This document shows, one piece after another, positions 14,812 through 21,253 of a stretch of 38,055 bases of DNA. The notes beneath the pieces were generated by a model. That model worked only from the letters and a program-made list of their open reading frames with translations, had not been told where the DNA came from and ran no database searches. This stretch comes from Pseudomonadales bacterium. Lineage in GTDB: Bacteria > Pseudomonadota > Gammaproteobacteria > Pseudomonadales > Azotimanducaceae. The translations under genes were made by a program, and so were the position numbers. The stretch lies in contig JANQOA010000399.1 of the NCBI GenBank assembly GCA_028279305.1, forward strand, positions 1 through 38,055, in the 5' to 3' direction. How positions within the stretch are numbered: position 1 is the stretch's first letter; the number at the start of each line of letters is the position of its first letter.

Positions 14812-15117
14812 TTATGCCCCGGGCGGCGGTACTTCGGTCACCTCGTAGAATTTGGCGTCCACGTTTTTCGGCGGGTTAGCGCCCATGGCGGCCTGAAACT
14901 CAGCCATGTGGGGGGTGCCGAAGTGAGCCTGCAGCGCATCCATGCTTTCCCACTGTTCGGTAATGCGCATTTTTGCCGGATTGTTAAGCTCCACGCTGAA
15001 GGTATAGTCGTAGCAGCCTTCCTCAGCGCGGCTGGCGGCTTCCATGGCGGCAATGGCCGCTTGCATGGCTTCAATATTATCTTCCGTGGTTTCGATGGTG
15101 GCGTTAACAACAATCAT
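14812..15117 (-). CDS. ABM-fold monooxygenase (YgiN/quinol monooxygenase-like)
   Basis: The 101-residue protein fits the dimeric alpha-beta barrel 'antibiotic biosynthesis monooxygenase' family in length and pattern: MIVVNATIETTEDNIEAMQAA, then CYDYTFSVELNNPAKMRITEQWESMDALQAHFGTPH-type core, here read as E-x-W-x-S followed by the AHF-x-x-PH motif. Such proteins oxidise quinols or other small aromatics without cofactors, or act as detoxification factors. Its ATG overlaps the TGA of the ATP-grasp ligase gene by four bases (ATGA), so it is translationally coupled to the ligase. The longer open frame upstream is shadow sequence inside the ligase gene. Confidence 0.85.
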   Translation of the reverse strand: MIVVNATIETTEDNIEAMQAAIAAMEAASRAEEGCYDYTFSVELNNPAKMRITEQWESMDALQAHFGTPHMAEFQAAMGANPPKNVDAKFYEVTEVPPPGA

Positions 15118-16112
15118 GCGGTTTGCTCCTTGATGTGGTCCAGCGGCAATTGAGATGCCTGCATGTACGGTGAAAAGTGCTCCTTGGCGTAGTCTACGCG
15201 TTCTTCGATGCTCATTCTGCGGGTTTTCTTGCCCTCGATATGGGTCAGCCGCGGCAGCAGCCCCATGTCGTTGGCAATTTGAATGCTCAGCCCGGGGCGG
15301 GCATTCAACTCCAGAATCAGCGGCCCGCGCTGACGGTCGATGACAATGTCGCAGCCCAGGTAACCCAGGTCGGTCACCTCGTAACAATGGGCCGCAAGCA
15401 TCAGCAGCTCGTGCCAGTTGGGCACGGCAATGTCTTCCAGCGAAGCCCCGGTGTCCGGGTGGTGGGTGACCAGGTGGTTGTTCTGCACGGCGCGGATGGC
15501 CTGGCCGGTGGCGATATCGAGGCCGACGCCGATGGCGCCCTGGTGCAGATTGGCCTTGCCGTCCGAAGATTTGGTGGCCAGCCGTAACATGCCCATGACC
15601 GGGAAGCCTTTAAAGGTAATCAGGCGGATATCCGGCACCCCTTCGTGACTGAACTGGTCGAAGTAAGGGCTGACCTTTACCAGCTCTTCAAAAAAAGCGA
15701 CGTCGGTGCGCCCGCCCAGCGAGTGCAGGCCGCTCAGGGTATTGGTTAGATGCCGTTTTACATCAGCCAGAGAGATCAGTTCGCCGCTGGCTTTCTGATA
15801 GCGGTCGCCGACCTGGCCGGTGACCACCAGTATGCCTTTGCCGCCGCTGCCCTGAGCGGGTTTGGCGACAAACTCTCCCAGCTCCGCCAGGTCTTCCTGC
15901 ACGCGTTCGATATCATGCTGGGTGTTCACCACTTTGATCAGGTTGGGGGCGGCCAGTCCGGCTTCTGCCACCACCTGTTTGGTAGTGAGTTTATTGTCCA
16001 CCATGGGGAAGTAGCGCCGGTCGTTGTAGCGGCTGATGTAGCCGACGTTGCGGCGGTTCATGCCCAGGATGCCTTTGCGGCGCAGGGTCAGCGGATTAAT
16101 CCAGGCGCTCAC
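15114..16112 (-). CDS. RimK-type ATP-grasp ligase (alpha-L-glutamate ligase-like)
   Basis: The 332-residue protein belongs to the RimK-related ATP-grasp amidoligases. The N-terminal GILGMNRRNVGYI motif marks the 'alpha-L-glutamate ligase-like' branch; the nucleotide loop is AKPAQGSGGKGI and the metal site is LILELNARPG near the C-terminus. Such enzymes join an amino acid, often glutamate, to a carboxylate via an acyl phosphate; the acceptor for this branch is not known to me. GTG at 16112 follows GAGG by five bases. It lies seven bases after the 7TM gene and is coupled to the ABM gene, within the known ligase/7TM/retropepsin neighbourhood. Confidence 0.9.
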   Translation of the reverse strand: MSAWINPLTLRRKGILGMNRRNVGYISRYNDRRYFPMVDNKLTTKQVVAEAGLAAPNLIKVVNTQHDIERVQEDLAELGEFVAKPAQGSGGKGILVVTGQVGDRYQKASGELISLADVKRHLTNTLSGLHSLGGRTDVAFFEELVKVSPYFDQFSHEGVPDIRLITFKGFPVMGMLRLATKSSDGKANLHQGAIGVGLDIATGQAIRAVQNNHLVTHHPDTGASLEDIAVPNWHELLMLAAHCYEVTDLGYLGCDIVIDRQRGPLILELNARPGLSIQIANDMGLLPRLTHIEGKKTRRMSIEERVDYAKEHFSPYMQASQLPLDHIKEQTA

Positions 16113-16119
16113 TTAAACC

Positions 16120-17613
16120 TCATTCAGCACGGCGGAAGGCGGCAAACCGGTTGAGTTCCAACAGCCGGTAGCCCGTGTATCTGCCTAACAGCAAGATAAA
16201 GCCGAGCAATACCAGGTGCAGCTCGGGGAAGTGGAAGACCAGATGCTCCACCTCCCGCACGCTCATCAACAGGTAGGCCAGCACCGCCACAAACAGGCTG
16301 CCGCCGCCCTGTATCAGCACCTCCTTGGGGCCTTCTTCCTCCCAGGTAATGGACATGCGCTCGATGGTCCAGGCCAGAATGATCATGGGGAAAAACGTGA
16401 TGGTCAGCCCCTGAATCAGTCCCAGGCGGAAGCTGACGATGCTGAAGATGCTGATGATGGCAATCACCAGCACCACCAGGGTGGAGATTCTCGCCACCAG
16501 TAACAGGTTCAGCGACGACAGGTAAGAGCGGATAAACAGGCCGATGGCCACCACTATGACAAAGCTGGCCAGCCCCGGCAGCAATTCGGTTTGCAGGAAG
16601 GCCAGTGCAATCAACACCGGCATGAACGTGCCTGAGGTGCGTAACCCCACCAGGACCCGCAGCAGGGTCACAACAAAGGCGCCCACGGGCAGCAGCATAA
16701 TCAGCTTGAACATGCCCTGTTCGGCGATGGGCAGGTTGTAAAGGGACAGCGCCAGGTCGTCAGCCTGCTCCTGGGCCAGCACCGTACTTGAGCGGGTCTG
16801 GCTGATCATGGAAAAGGTCACCCGGCTGTTGGTGCCGCCGAGTACTTCAAGTACCGCCGGAGTACCGGTCTGCCACAACAGCAGGTTGTCGGTCTCGGTC
16901 AGCTCACCCACCGCCGGGTTGTACAGGCGCCACCGTTCGCCGTCCCAAACCTGCAGATATGACGCCAGGCTCTGGCGCCGGCGGCCGTCTTCCAGCACCA
17001 GCACCTGAACTTTGCGGGCCGGCACTTCCGCGGTCTGCAGCACCCGCACCAGCAGGTCCTGCTGCTCAAAGTTGGCGGTCAGCAGGCTCAGGTTCTGGTC
17101 CGTGGGGCTGCGCCTCAGCGCTTGAATGATCTGCAGGGTCAAGGTGTGGGCGTCTGCGCTGGTCGGATACACCGTGGTCAGCAGGTGGTCCACCGCGGTC
17201 TGATAAGGTTCGTCCCAGGAAACCGGCGTCACGGTTTCAGGTGGGGTGGGGGCGATCTGATCGTCGTTGGTGACGATATCCAGCTTGTAGAAGAGGATCT
17301 GCCGGTCGATGGGGTCCCGCTGGGACCAGTGCGCGCGGCGCTGTTGCGCCCGCTCGATGGCAAACCCCCAGCCGGAGGAAGCAGCGGATTCCTGCACAAT
17401 TTCAAAGCCGGACTGACTGGGCGGCAGGGTCAGGTAAACCTGGCTGGGCCCGCCCTGGGCAACAAATTCGATGCGCGCTTCCACTTGCCAGATCATCGCC
17501 TGGCTGCTGGGCATCCAGGGGATATCGTAGATCTGATGGCGGAAGGTGGCGGCACCGGCGCCCACCGCCATCAGAATGATGACAATAAATAAAACGGGGC
17601 CGCTGCTATTCAT
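16120..17613 (-). CDS. Inactive transglutaminase-like domain fused to seven transmembrane helices
   Basis: The 497-residue protein has an N-terminal membrane segment (about 7-25), a large periplasmic region (about 30-300) of transglutaminase-like fold, including LLTTVYPTSADAHTLTLQIIQALRR and the AEVPARKVQVLVLEDG region without a recognisable catalytic Cys-His-Asp set, and about seven hydrophobic helices from residue 305 to the end. This matches the 'UUP1' family routinely found between an RimK-type ligase and a retropepsin-like protease. It probably binds peptides or a peptide-modified product at the membrane (inference). It lies 20 bases after the protease gene and seven before the ligase. 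Confidence 0.9.
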   Translation of the reverse strand: MNSSGPVLFIVIILMAVGAGAATFRHQIYDIPWMPSSQAMIWQVEARIEFVAQGGPSQVYLTLPPSQSGFEIVQESAASSGWGFAIERAQQRRAHWSQRDPIDRQILFYKLDIVTNDDQIAPTPPETVTPVSWDEPYQTAVDHLLTTVYPTSADAHTLTLQIIQALRRSPTDQNLSLLTANFEQQDLLVRVLQTAEVPARKVQVLVLEDGRRRQSLASYLQVWDGERWRLYNPAVGELTETDNLLLWQTGTPAVLEVLGGTNSRVTFSMISQTRSSTVLAQEQADDLALSLYNLPIAEQGMFKLIMLLPVGAFVVTLLRVLVGLRTSGTFMPVLIALAFLQTELLPGLASFVIVVAIGLFIRSYLSSLNLLLVARISTLVVLVIAIISIFSIVSFRLGLIQGLTITFFPMIILAWTIERMSITWEEEGPKEVLIQGGGSLFVAVLAYLLMSVREVEHLVFHFPELHLVLLGFILLLGRYTGYRLLELNRFAAFRRAE

Positions 17614-17633
17614 GGCCGCTGCTCATGAACGGG

Positions 17634-18386
17634 TCAGTCTGCCTGGTAGCTGGGTTGCACAAACTTCTGGCTCACGTCCACCATGGCCATGTCCGTCAGG
17701 AAGTTACGCCCCAGGATCATGTTATGTGCCAGATGGCTGCGGTCCGCCAGGGTAAATTCAAAGGTATCCTGCACATCTCCCAGACGGATGCGCAACTCGA
17801 CCACCGGCCGCCGTGAACCGGTTTTATCCGCCTGCTGATAGACCCGCACATATTTCATCACCGGCAGTTCAATGGACACGGTTTCTTCTTCCGCCACCAG
17901 GTCGAAGCGCACCCAGTCGTCGCCGTCGCGTTCAAACTCGGTGACGTTTTCAGCGTGCAGGGAACTGGAACTGGCGCCTGTATCCACCCGGGCGACAATC
18001 ACAAAGCCGGGTTCGGATACCCACACATGTTCTACCTCGCCCAGCACCATTTTGTCCGCGCTGTTGACCAGCACCCGCTGGGTATCCGCGCACTCGGCGG
18101 TTTCCGGCGCCGGGGCGGCGGTGCGGGTTCTGCACGCGGCCAGCAGGTTTTCGCCCAGCTCGTCAACGCTGTTGGACAGCACGGCAAACTGTCCCGCCAC
18201 CTCTGCTTCGCTGGCATAACGCAGATCGCGCAGATGGGCTATTTCGCTTTCAGCCCTCGCCAGGCTGGCTTTCACATCCTGCAGGTTGCGCTGCATCTCC
18301 CTCATCGCGGACGGCTGAGGCTGAACCTGGGCGCAGCCGCTGAGCAGCGCGGCCAGGCTGAGCAAACTTATAAAGGTGAAACGCAT
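17634..18386 (-). CDS. Retropepsin-like aspartyl protease lipoprotein ('ATP-dependent zinc protease', RimB-like)
   Basis: The 250-residue protein starts with a lipoprotein signal, lipobox LLSGC with C18, then a coiled-coil region (about 30-75) and a retropepsin-like domain. The catalytic motif is DTGASSSSLHAENV, and the second half holds MILGRNFLTDMAMVD. Databases call this family 'ATP-dependent zinc protease', but the DTGA motif marks an aspartyl protease fold. The frame is open up to 18458, yet the lipobox distance fixes ATG 18386 as the start. It heads the operon with the 7TM protein and ligase and diverges from the radical SAM gene across a LexA box. Confidence 0.9.
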   Translation of the reverse strand: MRFTFISLLSLAALLSGCAQVQPQPSAMREMQRNLQDVKASLARAESEIAHLRDLRYASEAEVAGQFAVLSNSVDELGENLLAACRTRTAAPAPETAECADTQRVLVNSADKMVLGEVEHVWVSEPGFVIVARVDTGASSSSLHAENVTEFERDGDDWVRFDLVAEEETVSIELPVMKYVRVYQQADKTGSRRPVVELRIRLGDVQDTFEFTLADRSHLAHNMILGRNFLTDMAMVDVSQKFVQPSYQAD

Positions 18387-18440
18387 TGTTGTTGATATGT
18401 TCTTCCCTGGGGGGCGTAGTCTAATGTCGTCATATAGAGC

Positions 18441-18469
18441 TTGATACTGTATATACATACAGTTATAAA
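18441..18469 (+). promoter_or_regulatory. Sigma-70 promoter of the radical SAM gene
   Basis: TTGATA (18441-18446) and TATAAA (18464-18469) are separated by exactly 17 bases, an excellent sigma-70 promoter. Transcription would begin near 18476. The spacer is occupied by the LexA operator, so LexA bound there would block RNA polymerase. Confidence 0.8.
18445..18464. promoter_or_regulatory. LexA (SOS) box
   Basis: TACTGTATATACATACAGTT matches the E. coli LexA consensus (CTGT-N8-ACAG core, AT-rich centre) at 18 of 20 positions. It lies between the -35 and -10 elements of the radical SAM promoter, and 58 bases upstream of the divergent retropepsin-like gene start. Confidence 0.88.
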
Positions 18470-18523
18470 GATCAAATGGAAAAAACCCCGGAAATCAAAC
18501 CCACCGACGTGCTCAAAGGCGGC

Positions 18524-18530
18524 AAGGAGG
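18524..18530 (+). promoter_or_regulatory. Ribosome-binding site deciding the radical SAM start
   Basis: AAGGAGG lies eight bases before GTG 18539. The upstream ATG at 18476 has no such site and coincides with the predicted transcription start, so this site supports GTG 18539. Confidence 0.75.
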
Positions 18531-18538
18531 AAACCGGT

Positions 18539-19630
18539 GTGCTGAAAGGCCGCGGCAGCGGCAGCAATCAGCACAGCCGCTACCTGGCCACCCATTCCGT
18601 GGTTGAAGATGAACACTGGTTCTTTGCAAATACCACCGAAGACAGCGGCGAAGCCGCTGCGGAGGGGGTTTGCGCGGTACCCACGCAGTTTTTCCCGGAC
18701 CGCACCAAACGCCTGATCACCACCAACAAATCGCCGGATGTTCCTTTTTCCCAGTCCATCAATCCGTACAAAGGCTGCGAGCACGGCTGCATATATTGTT
18801 TTGCCCGCCCCACTCACGCCTTTCTGGATCTCTCTCCGGGTCTGGATTTCGAAAGTAAAATCTTCTTTAAAACTGATGTGCGCCGGCATCTGGTGGCGGA
18901 ACTGGGCAAACCCGGCTACCGCTGCTCGGTGATGGCCATGGGCACCAATACCGACCCTTACCAGCCCGGTGAAAAAACCCGGCGGGTCACCCGGGAGGTG
19001 CTGGAAACGCTGGCGGAGTGCCATCATCCGGTTGGCATTGTGACGAAAAGCGCGTTAGTGCTGCGCGACCTTGACGTGCTGGGGCAAATGGCGGCGGAAG
19101 GGCTGGTGCACGTCAACGTCAGCGTCACCACGCTGGACAATGGGCTGAAAACCAAGCTGGAGCCGCGCACCGCCGGCCCCCGCGCGCGCCTGCGCACCAT
19201 CTCAGCTCTGCGCAAGGCGGGCATCCCCACCGGCGCCATGGTGGCGCCTGTCATTCCCTTCATCAACGATCATGAAATCGAAAGCCTGGTTGCCGCCAGC
19301 GCTGAGGCCGGCGCCCAGGCGGTCAGTTACGTTCTGCTGCGGCTGCCGCTGGAAGTGAAGCCGCTGTTCGAAGAATGGCTGCACAATCACTTTCCCCAGC
19401 GCGCCGAGCGGGTCATGTCCGCGGTGCGGGACACCCGGGGCGGTGTGGCTTACCGCGCGCAATGGCACAAACGTATGGTTGGGCAGGGTGAAATTGCCGG
19501 CCTCATCCGCGCGCGCTTCAACGCTGCACGCAAAAAGGCCGGGTTGGCGGACGCGGAGTTGCCTGCTGTGCGCACGGACTTGTTTACACCGCCGCGTGCC
19601 GCGCAGGACCGGCAGCTGGATTTATTCTAG
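18539..19630 (+). CDS. PA0069-type radical SAM protein, SplB (photolyase) superfamily
   Basis: The protein (363 residues from GTG 18539) has the radical SAM cluster motif CEHGCIYC (C80, C84, C87; Cx3Cx2C as in spore photoproduct lyase) followed by FARPTHAFL, AMGTNTDPYQPGE and SVTTLDNGLKTKLEPR, the PA0069/COG1533 pattern. COG1533 contains DNA-repair photoproduct lyases, but this branch is uncharacterised. A further cysteine, C129 (YRCSVMAMG), lies 42 residues after the cluster, near where spore photoproduct lyase has its hydrogen-donor cysteine. Translation could start at ATG 18476 (384 residues); AAGGAGG and the promoter position favour GTG 18539, and conserved homology begins at KGRGSGSNQHSRY. 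Its promoter carries a LexA box. Confidence 0.9.
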   Translation: MLKGRGSGSNQHSRYLATHSVVEDEHWFFANTTEDSGEAAAEGVCAVPTQFFPDRTKRLITTNKSPDVPFSQSINPYKGCEHGCIYCFARPTHAFLDLSPGLDFESKIFFKTDVRRHLVAELGKPGYRCSVMAMGTNTDPYQPGEKTRRVTREVLETLAECHHPVGIVTKSALVLRDLDVLGQMAAEGLVHVNVSVTTLDNGLKTKLEPRTAGPRARLRTISALRKAGIPTGAMVAPVIPFINDHEIESLVAASAEAGAQAVSYVLLRLPLEVKPLFEEWLHNHFPQRAERVMSAVRDTRGGVAYRAQWHKRMVGQGEIAGLIRARFNAARKKAGLADAELPAVRTDLFTPPRAAQDRQLDLF

Positions 19631-19666
19631 GCAGTTTTACGCTAAGCTGCGCGCCAGCATTAAAGG

Positions 19667-21253
19667 GTGAGGGCTGCTATTTTGGAACAAACCGGCTGGG
19701 GCCTTACGGCATGGTCGTGGGTCTTTTTGTTTGCCTACATTGTCATGATGTTGGCGTTCGGCTGGCTGGGCCAGCGCAAGGTGGCCAACGCGGATGACTT
19801 TGCAACCGCGCGCAATGCGTACGGCCCTTTGTTTCTGGCGTTTGCTTTTGCCGCCACCACTGCCAGCGGCGCAACCTTTGTCGGGTTTCCGGGCATCGGC
19901 TACGACGTTGGCATGGCGGCACTGTGGTCGGTATTTCTCTACCCCATTGGTGTTTATCTGGGTGTATTGCTGTGCCTGCGCCTGGTCAGCAGCAGCGGCC
20001 ACGAATTCGGCAGCCGCTCCATTCCCGAATATCTTGGCGCCCGCTACCAGTCCGATCTCATCCGCATCCTGGTTTCGCTGTTCTCGCTGTCGCTGTTTTT
20101 CTATCTGGCCGGGCAACTGGTGTCCGGTATTGTCATGTTCGAAATCATGTTGGGGGTGTCGCCTGCGGTGGCGCTGGGTGTCACCGCGACAGTGTTGATG
20201 ATTTACGTGGTGCTGGGGGGTGCCCATGCGGACATTCTCACCGACGGTGTGCAGGGGTTTATCATGGTTGCCGTCGGCCTGCTGGTGGCGCTGCTGTTTC
20301 TGTTCGGTTACGGCATCGACGGCGGCTTAAGCGGCATGCTGGACCAGTTGCGCGCCAAAGACCCGCAACTGGTGGGATGGCTGAACCGGGATCAGGTGCT
20401 CTACCACTCCTGGTGGTCGGTGGTGGCCATCCTGCTGGCCCATATTCCACTGGGCATGCTGCCGCACATCGGCAACAAGCTGTGGGCGCTGAAAGAACCC
20501 CGGCAACGGCGCTCCTTTATCCGCCTGGCGTTTGCCTTTGGCCTGATCCTCGGCATGCTGGGTCTGGGCGGCATCATGGCGCGTGTGGTATTGGGTGAAG
20601 ACATCAATGGCAACCAGGCGCTGGCGCTGCTGTTTATTGAGCTGTTTCCCACCTGGTTTGCGGCCCTGCTGGGGGTGGGGATTCTGGCCGCGGTCATGTC
20701 CACCGCGGACGGGCTGGTGGTCTCCTCTTCGCAGATTGTCGCCAACGACCTCTACCGCTTGAGTTTTGTGCCCCGCTTCAGAGCCCATCTCAGCGAACAG
20801 GAAATTGAGCGCCGCACCCTGAACATCAGCAGATGGGCCACGGTTGTAATTATGCTGCTGTGTACCGCGCTGGCCTGGTCGATGCTGGATATGAACGTCA
20901 CCATAATTGTCTGGATCGGCACCGGCTGCATGATGGCGGCTTTTGCCGGGCCGCTGATCCTGGGTTCGATCTGGCGCGGCGTAACCCGCGCCGGTGCGTT
21001 TGCCGGTTTGTTAACAGGCGGGCTGGTCTTTATTGTCACTTTCAACGGCCTGATTAACCCTGATTGGTTCAGCCCCGGGATGTTGCGGCGGGCAGCGGAA
21101 TGGCTGCTGGTGGAATCTCCCAATCCCTGGTCCTGCGCAGCCATGGGTGAACTGGTGTCGGTGGCGGTGACCGTGCTGGTGTCAAAATTGACCCAGCCGC
21201 TGCCGCGTGCCCATATGCAGCGATTGTTTCCGGAGGCGGATTCCGCCGGTTAA
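19667..21253 (+). CDS. Sodium:solute symporter family (SSS) transporter
   Basis: The 528-residue protein has about 13 membrane segments in the SSS (LeuT-fold) arrangement. Diagnostic stretches are TTASGATFVGFPGIGYDVG near the start, SIPEYLGARYQS, the conserved GGAHADILTDGVQG segment and AAVMSTADGLVVSSSQIVANDLYR, which contains the usual sodium-site serines. Substrate cannot be named; proline, pantothenate and acetate carriers share the fold. GTG 19667 is listed, but TTG 19682 has a GGTGAGG sequence eight bases before it and may be the real start. It follows the radical SAM gene by 36 bases and ends overlapping the convergent cysteine-cluster gene by four bases. Confidence 0.88.
   Translation: MRAAILEQTGWGLTAWSWVFLFAYIVMMLAFGWLGQRKVANADDFATARNAYGPLFLAFAFAATTASGATFVGFPGIGYDVGMAALWSVFLYPIGVYLGVLLCLRLVSSSGHEFGSRSIPEYLGARYQSDLIRILVSLFSLSLFFYLAGQLVSGIVMFEIMLGVSPAVALGVTATVLMIYVVLGGAHADILTDGVQGFIMVAVGLLVALLFLFGYGIDGGLSGMLDQLRAKDPQLVGWLNRDQVLYHSWWSVVAILLAHIPLGMLPHIGNKLWALKEPRQRRSFIRLAFAFGLILGMLGLGGIMARVVLGEDINGNQALALLFIELFPTWFAALLGVGILAAVMSTADGLVVSSSQIVANDLYRLSFVPRFRAHLSEQEIERRTLNISRWATVVIMLLCTALAWSMLDMNVTIIVWIGTGCMMAAFAGPLILGSIWRGVTRAGAFAGLLTGGLVFIVTFNGLINPDWFSPGMLRRAAEWLLVESPNPWSCAAMGELVSVAVTVLVSKLTQPLPRAHMQRLFPEADSAG

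Follow-up and report, generated by a model that had tools for sequence, protein, structure and literature searches.

A predicted LexA operator inside the promoter of a PA0069-family radical SAM gene, and its conservation among Pseudomonadales

Within a 38,055-nucleotide stretch of DNA from a Pseudomonadales genome (the whole of which is referred to here as the window), a close match to the LexA operator of E. coli occupies the promoter of a gene encoding a PA0069-family radical SAM protein, and a comparable box precedes nearly every orthologous gene that we examined in the same order. We read this arrangement as a working LexA operator of the recA type, governing an SOS-induced radical SAM enzyme whose target is most likely damaged nucleic acid, and we place the probability of this reading as a whole at about 0.72. 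LexA control of the gene is very likely, because the operator is accompanied by a matching host LexA with other boxed SOS genes and by conservation of the box. The DNA-damage inducibility that a preliminary description of this DNA had predicted is well supported by a box that lies within the promoter and recurs in 35 of 37 members of the order. A role in repair, argued from regulation and from a predicted fold, is plausible.

Operator, promoter and coding sequence

The features of the locus that bear on this reading are listed below by position in the window.

17634-18386, minus strand: divergent gene with a Zn_protease domain (PF05618), starting 58 bases to the left of the operator
18441-18446, plus strand: predicted -35 hexamer TTGATA; the same hexamer and arrangement are found in the E. 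coli recA promoter and in the close relative L082
18445-18464, plus strand: predicted LexA operator (SOS box) TACTGTATATACATACAGTT, agreeing at 18 of 20 positions with the E. coli consensus
18464-18469, plus strand: predicted -10 hexamer TATAAA, the same in L082
18524-18530, plus strand: putative Shine-Dalgarno sequence AAGGAGG, 8 bases before the GTG at 18539
18539-19630, plus strand: PA0069-family (NF033668) radical SAM gene with a probable GTG start at 18539; a longer open reading frame begins at the ATG at 18476
18776-18799, plus strand: CxxxCxxC cluster motif CEHGCIYC (residues 101-108 of P0001), unchanged in all 30 sequences aligned
19667-21253, plus strand: sodium:solute symporter-family gene (PF00474), separated by 36 bases from the stop codon of the radical SAM gene

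Direct reading of positions 18441-18469 yields TTGATA, CTGTATATACATACAGT and TATAAA in succession, with a spacer of 17 bases (18447-18463) between the two hexamers. The 20-base box shares the last two bases of TTGATA and the first base of TATAAA, and its count of 18 agreements refers to the E. coli LexA consensus, TACTGTATATATATACAGTA. The preliminary description had placed an operator of this quality between these two hexamers, and the direct reading bears it out. Allowing up to three mismatches, the 16-base LexA core occurs once in the window, against an expectation of 0.02. By manual count, each hexamer matches its own consensus at five of six positions. A sigma-70 promoter scan of positions 17600-19800 listed no promoter; its rule requires the second hexamer to finish with T, and this pair was passed over because TATAAA has A in that place. 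A similar arrangement is found in the E. coli recA promoter-operator (CTTGATACTGTATGAGCATACAGTATAAT, compared with CTTGATACTGTATATACATACAGTTATAAA in the window), the box lying inside the -35/-10 spacer in both cases. The recA sequence in the K-12 record reads CTTGATACTGTATGAGCATACAGTATAATTG, however, with a spacer of 16 bases rather than 17, and the gene under control is a different one. The radical SAM promoter itself is ordinary.

The open reading frame downstream of the operator (18476-19630) encodes 384 residues, and its product contains a Radical_SAM domain (PF04055). The NCBIfam model for PA0069 family radical SAM proteins, NF033668, matches it at 461.7 bits (cut-off 360), with profile positions 1-348 of 348 aligned to residues 24-384. 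Together with the cluster motif at residues 101-108, this match confirms the earlier assignment of a PA0069-type protein with a Cx3Cx2C motif; the CxxxCxxC pattern is present in 203 of 204 translations. Translation probably begins at the GTG at 18539 rather than at the ATG at 18476, since 23 residues precede the family domain, the ATG lies near the expected transcription start, and AAGGAGG precedes the GTG. A second in-frame GTG occurs at 18509. In L082, the ATG adjoining the box falls in another frame. The starts that are in frame there are GTG codons, and one of these stands just before the KGRG motif, as one does in the window.

Host LexA and the distribution of the box

The host genome (5.70 Mb in 399 contigs; 97.4% complete with 6.6% contamination, as tool figures) contains a single lexA match of 243.9 bits, and within the 25-residue stretches that were compared, the encoded protein has the same 16-residue DNA-binding segment as E. 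coli LexA. The pattern CTGT-N8-ACAG occurs at 47 places genome-wide and is by itself weak evidence, because the reversed pattern occurs at 27. Twenty regions containing 22 of the other 46 sites were taken for their surroundings, and scoring over 20 bases, which covers these 22 sites, gave a value of 17 or higher for four of them, namely the single boxes upstream of recA-recX and of a dinB-like polymerase gene and two further sites. Two boxes precede the host lexA gene, agreeing with the consensus at 15 and 13 of 20 positions as against 18 at the radical SAM gene, and two more precede a SulA-domain gene that is followed by an IMS-domain gene, which we read as an imuA-imuB-like pair. As judged from these sequences, the host LexA is likely to read the gammaproteobacterial type of box.

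Two other boxes in this genome were also observed. At L033, positions 1532-1547 (contig C196:7031-7046), a perfect LexA core, CTGTATATATATACAG, stands directly before an open reading frame of 74 residues (L033:1306-1530, minus strand) that has no Pfam match over cut-off (PgaD reaches 15.3 bits against 27) and is possibly a small SOS gene. At L035, positions 1482-1497 (contig C282:15081-15096), an 18/20 LexA box, TACTGTTTATTTATACAGTA, lies 3' of a peptidase-like gene, and an open reading frame of 113 residues downstream of the box (L035:1633-1974) is without a Pfam match.

Conservation of the box was scored in regions spanning 250 bases before and 20 bases after the family start of PA0069 genes exceeding the NF033668 cut-off. 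The sample comprised 37 genes of the same order, the window included, and 87 others of the class, 124 in all; the 87 represent 92 genomes over the cut-off after removal of two partial genes (G060 and G082) and three order members, and the upstream regions of L059 and L205 were short. The score was the sum of matches and core matches, and the threshold of 19 or more was picked after a first look at the data. At this threshold, a box was found in 35 of 37 genes in the order and in 12 of 87 elsewhere in the class; among the controls, the reversed upstream sequence reached it in 2 of 124 cases (both outside the order, hence 0 of 37 within it) and gene bodies in 0 of 124. The fixed pattern CTGT-N8-ACAG was present in 31 of 37 and 9 of 87 genes, respectively, and in 0 of 124 for both controls. 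Because the genomes share ancestry, these counts are not independent trials. The preliminary description had proposed looking for the box upstream of PA0069-family genes across Gammaproteobacteria, and this conservation holds within the order but not in the rest of the class, where 75 of the 87 orthologues have no canonical box directly upstream.

In the order members, the box starts upstream of the conserved KGRG start, at distances of 29 to 100 bases. The sequence TTGA stands immediately 5' of the box, as it does in the window where the box fills the -35/-10 spacer, in just 2 of the 36 order members scoring 17 or more (the window and L070); it does so as well in the named relative L082, whose promoter-operator is nearly letter-identical to that of the window and whose PA0069 protein is 68% identical. 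The box is conserved, but its register relative to the promoter, and hence its nesting there, is not. Within the order, L069 has no box in its upstream region, and L070, which belongs to the same family as the host genome, carries a degraded one, ACCTGTATGCACATACATAT, scoring 17 and departing from CTGT-N8-ACAG at one base. L076 was counted as boxed, with a score of 19, but has one good half only; its intact half-box is followed immediately by AAGGAGG, possibly reflecting a recent loss of SOS control.

Outside the order, a lexA match at E <= 1e-55 was found for 12 of 12 boxed genomes versus 33 of 75 unboxed ones, genomes outside the lexA matches listed being counted as without lexA. On this comparison, a canonical LexA seems to be needed but insufficient for a box on the PA0069 gene. 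The 33 unboxed orthologues occur in genomes that do have lexA, and SOS control therefore looks lineage-specific. As a check for operons, frames of at least 80 codons ending near the gene were counted at 60 of the 75 loci without a box and at 33 of the 47 with one, a comparison that proved uninformative.

A set from named genomes, consisting of the best 80 of at least 593 loci, overlaps the first, in that L120 and L125 carry the same gene as L172 and L059. Among these best 80 of at least 593, a LexA box was found in 38 loci, and in 0 of 80 when the sequence was reversed; it is present in 22 of the 23 loci titled Pseudomonas, whose PA0069 orthologues belong to the same NF033668 family, and also in loci titled Marinomonas, Marinobacterium, Modicisalibacter, Caballeronia, Paraburkholderia and Cupriavidus plantarum, and it was not found at Cupriavidus yeoncheonensis or at a Burkholderiales MAG. 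The 28 loci that record titles place in Alphaproteobacteria present GTTC-N7-GTTC, the alphaproteobacterial LexA motif, in 27 upstream regions and in 0 of 28 for both controls. A GTTC or GAAC repeat also occurs in 4 of the 52 other named loci (L094, L115, L135 and L150). That a single gene family lies under operators of two unrelated types argues for selection on SOS control, and the same two-operator argument appears, in the available excerpt of a 2012 paper, for alpha- and betaproteobacteria (PMC3323433).

Predicted fold, proposed mechanism and alternative readings

An AlphaFold2 model computed from 30 sequences, of moderate confidence (mean pLDDT 74.1, pTM 0.77) and with pLDDT below 50 at residues 1-66 and in the loop that holds the cluster (101-113), displays a radical SAM fold resembling that of spore photoproduct lyase. 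In a Foldseek search, the top six PDB matches were all entries for this lyase (E 1.3e-7 to 6.7e-7, TM 0.45-0.57), ahead of NifB, SkfB and lipoyl synthase. Spore photoproduct lyase (SplB; 4FHC and relatives) is thus the best fold match. It also has a CxxxCxxC motif, and an EP-x7-R-x9-AG-x7-AP segment is common to it and the PA0069 family in a profile alignment (69% probability) for which two lyase fragments were used. The identity between the lyase and the window protein is 14-16% over the fold alignment, however, and TIGR04070, the lyase family model, gives 11.6 bits against a cut-off of 400. The kinship with spore photoproduct lyase put forward earlier lies chiefly in the fold, and on the score against the family model we rejected the protein as a spore photoproduct lyase proper. 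When the PDB was searched by sequence with the family profile, SkfB was reached but the lyase was absent among matches at E up to 1, and the protein matches the MoaA, PqqE and SkfB models weakly.

The lyase and the PA0069 family probably differ also in the residue that would quench the radical. C140 of the 4FHC protein is presumably the conserved hydrogen-donor cysteine of the lyase, and C140A/S mutants are named among the lyase PDB matches. In the PA0069 family, the three cysteines of the cluster are the only ones conserved throughout 30 aligned sequences, which leaves no invariant candidate for that role among them. When T157 is taken as the equivalent of C140 (our own placement, at the strand end before NTD versus CTSD), the position is a cysteine in 0 of 192 readable sequences, and when C150 is taken instead (an hhalign assignment at the edge of a weak alignment), it is a cysteine in 125 of 192; a further 12 of the 204 sequences could not be read, one of these, L077, owing to a misplaced anchor. 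The predicted fold is lyase-like, probably with a different mode of radical quenching, and the lyase reaction itself is doubtful.

By the mechanism that we propose, a LexA dimer would cover the -35/-10 spacer and keep RNA polymerase off the promoter, which would be released upon DNA damage by RecA-triggered cleavage of LexA. The PA0069-family enzyme would then be made along with RecA, LexA and error-prone polymerase proteins. It would be a SAM-cleaving [4Fe-4S] protein with a fold like that of spore photoproduct lyase, and its 5'-deoxyadenosyl radical chemistry would most likely be directed at damaged nucleic acid, where the lesion need not be the spore photoproduct. Repression and induction in the host, the cluster and its SAM chemistry, and DNA as the substrate are all matters that we infer.

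Other readings of the locus have been considered, the most basic of which is that the box is a chance match or a functionless relic in the host genome. The genome-wide tally of the loose pattern against its reverse (47 versus 27) and the degraded box of L070, a member of the same family, would fit such a view, but it leaves unexplained an agreement of 18 in 20, a box at 35 of 37 orthologues of the order, and a whole promoter in L082 that is near-identical despite 68% identity between the proteins, and we consider it extremely improbable. It is also very unlikely that the main target of the LexA site is the divergent Zn_protease gene (17634-18386, minus strand), or that this gene and the radical SAM gene are both served. 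The operator does lie in the intergenic region that they share, 58 bases from the start of the Zn_protease gene, and L083 retains both the divergent gene and a box. Across the 110 loci of relatives scanned for neighbours (with flanks of roughly 1500 bases for 30 of them and of at most 3000 for the other 80, less where a contig ended), however, a Zn_protease relative was found near the radical SAM gene at L083 alone, and boxes precede radical SAM genes that lack this neighbour; in the window, moreover, both hexamers of the radical SAM promoter share bases with the box. An operator acting mainly on the divergent gene was rejected because of this single occurrence in 110 loci. The same count, and the case of L082, which keeps the promoter-operator and where the Zn_protease gene was not found, point to the radical SAM gene as the likely target of the box.

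Several observations were made on the neighbouring genes. A minus-strand run at 15114-18386 consists of ATP-grasp, 7TM-transglutaminase-like and Zn_protease genes, and among the 110 loci, relatives of this trio are found near the radical SAM gene at L083 only. Relatives of the symporter gene are present at L082 and L083 only of the 110 and are 86-87% identical, more conserved than the radical SAM protein (68% at L082, 65% at L083). The symporter gene may be co-transcribed with the radical SAM gene.

Another alternative accepts the operator as real and assigns the enzyme to some other SOS task, such as the modification of tRNA, of the nucleotide pool or of a protein, rather than to reversal of a DNA lesion. 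The weak matches to the MoaA, PqqE and SkfB models, a PDB sequence search that arrives at SkfB and at no lyase, and the lack of any invariant cysteine beyond those of the cluster in 30 sequences are consistent with this proposal. By fold, however, the lyase comes clearly first, and the orthologues fall under two unrelated LexA-type motifs, as a damage function would predict, so that we regard a task of this other kind as unlikely. The reading that we prefer remains that of an SOS-induced enzyme most likely acting on damaged nucleic acid. A broader proposal would make the PA0069 family a widespread group of LexA-controlled direct-reversal DNA repair enzymes in non-sporulating proteobacteria, combining a lyase-like fold that lacks the conserved donor cysteine with a lesion other than the spore photoproduct and with a switch fixed under two unrelated LexA motifs; we offer it tentatively, as an idea that may hold but about which we are more doubtful than confident.

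Precedents and implications

A link between the SOS response and COG1533/SplB proteins, which the preliminary description had treated as unrecognised, is already in print for several groups. In the available excerpts of these papers, the SplB radical SAM protein (COG1533) is described as SOS regulated in several species, with citation, among others, of a P. aeruginosa SOS study (Cirz et al., 2006, cited in PMC8565304); COG1533/splB under LexA is ascribed to DNA repair (PMC3323433, PMC8565304); a radical SAM protein is counted in the core SOS regulon of Gram-positives and also in that of Balneolaeota (PMC7739468); and SplB-like proteins are tied to SOS-related operons (PMC3765255). As excerpted, the published splB/COG1533 genes resemble that of the window in being radical SAM genes under a LexA box (PMC3323433, PMC8565304, PMC7739468). 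They come from multi-chromosome alpha- and betaproteobacteria, Bacteroidetes, Gram-positives and Balneolaeota, along with the cited P. aeruginosa study. According to the excerpt of one paper, the trait was not seen in the gammaproteobacteria studied there (PMC3323433); in the present survey, by contrast, it is common within one order of that class. In P. fluorescens, as excerpted, a gene called SplB is upregulated under epigallocatechin gallate (PMC5435343).

Literature searches returned no paper linking PA0069 to LexA or Rv2578c to LexA, nor one when Pseudomonas, LexA binding, SOS regulon and radical SAM protein were combined, and a search for PA0069 by itself revealed the use of this gene as a tag site in strain building. 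The LexA regulon that Cirz and colleagues published for P. aeruginosa in 2006 reportedly includes PA0069, and we take this gene to be one of the 15 SOS genes of that species. We know of no substrate for a PA0069-family enzyme.

The operator described here adds a confirmed, well-conserved instance to a regulatory link that was already known. The SOS regulon of P. aeruginosa is small, with 15 known genes, all but two of which changed expression after UV-C according to the available excerpt (PMC12796719), and a LexA-boxed radical SAM gene with the fold of a repair enzyme in relatives is, against this background, a loose end. With a LexA box preceding almost all of the PA0069 genes that we examined in the order, and another LexA-type motif on nearly all of the alphaproteobacterial ones examined, the PA0069 family is therefore a good target for testing light-independent lesion reversal outside spores.
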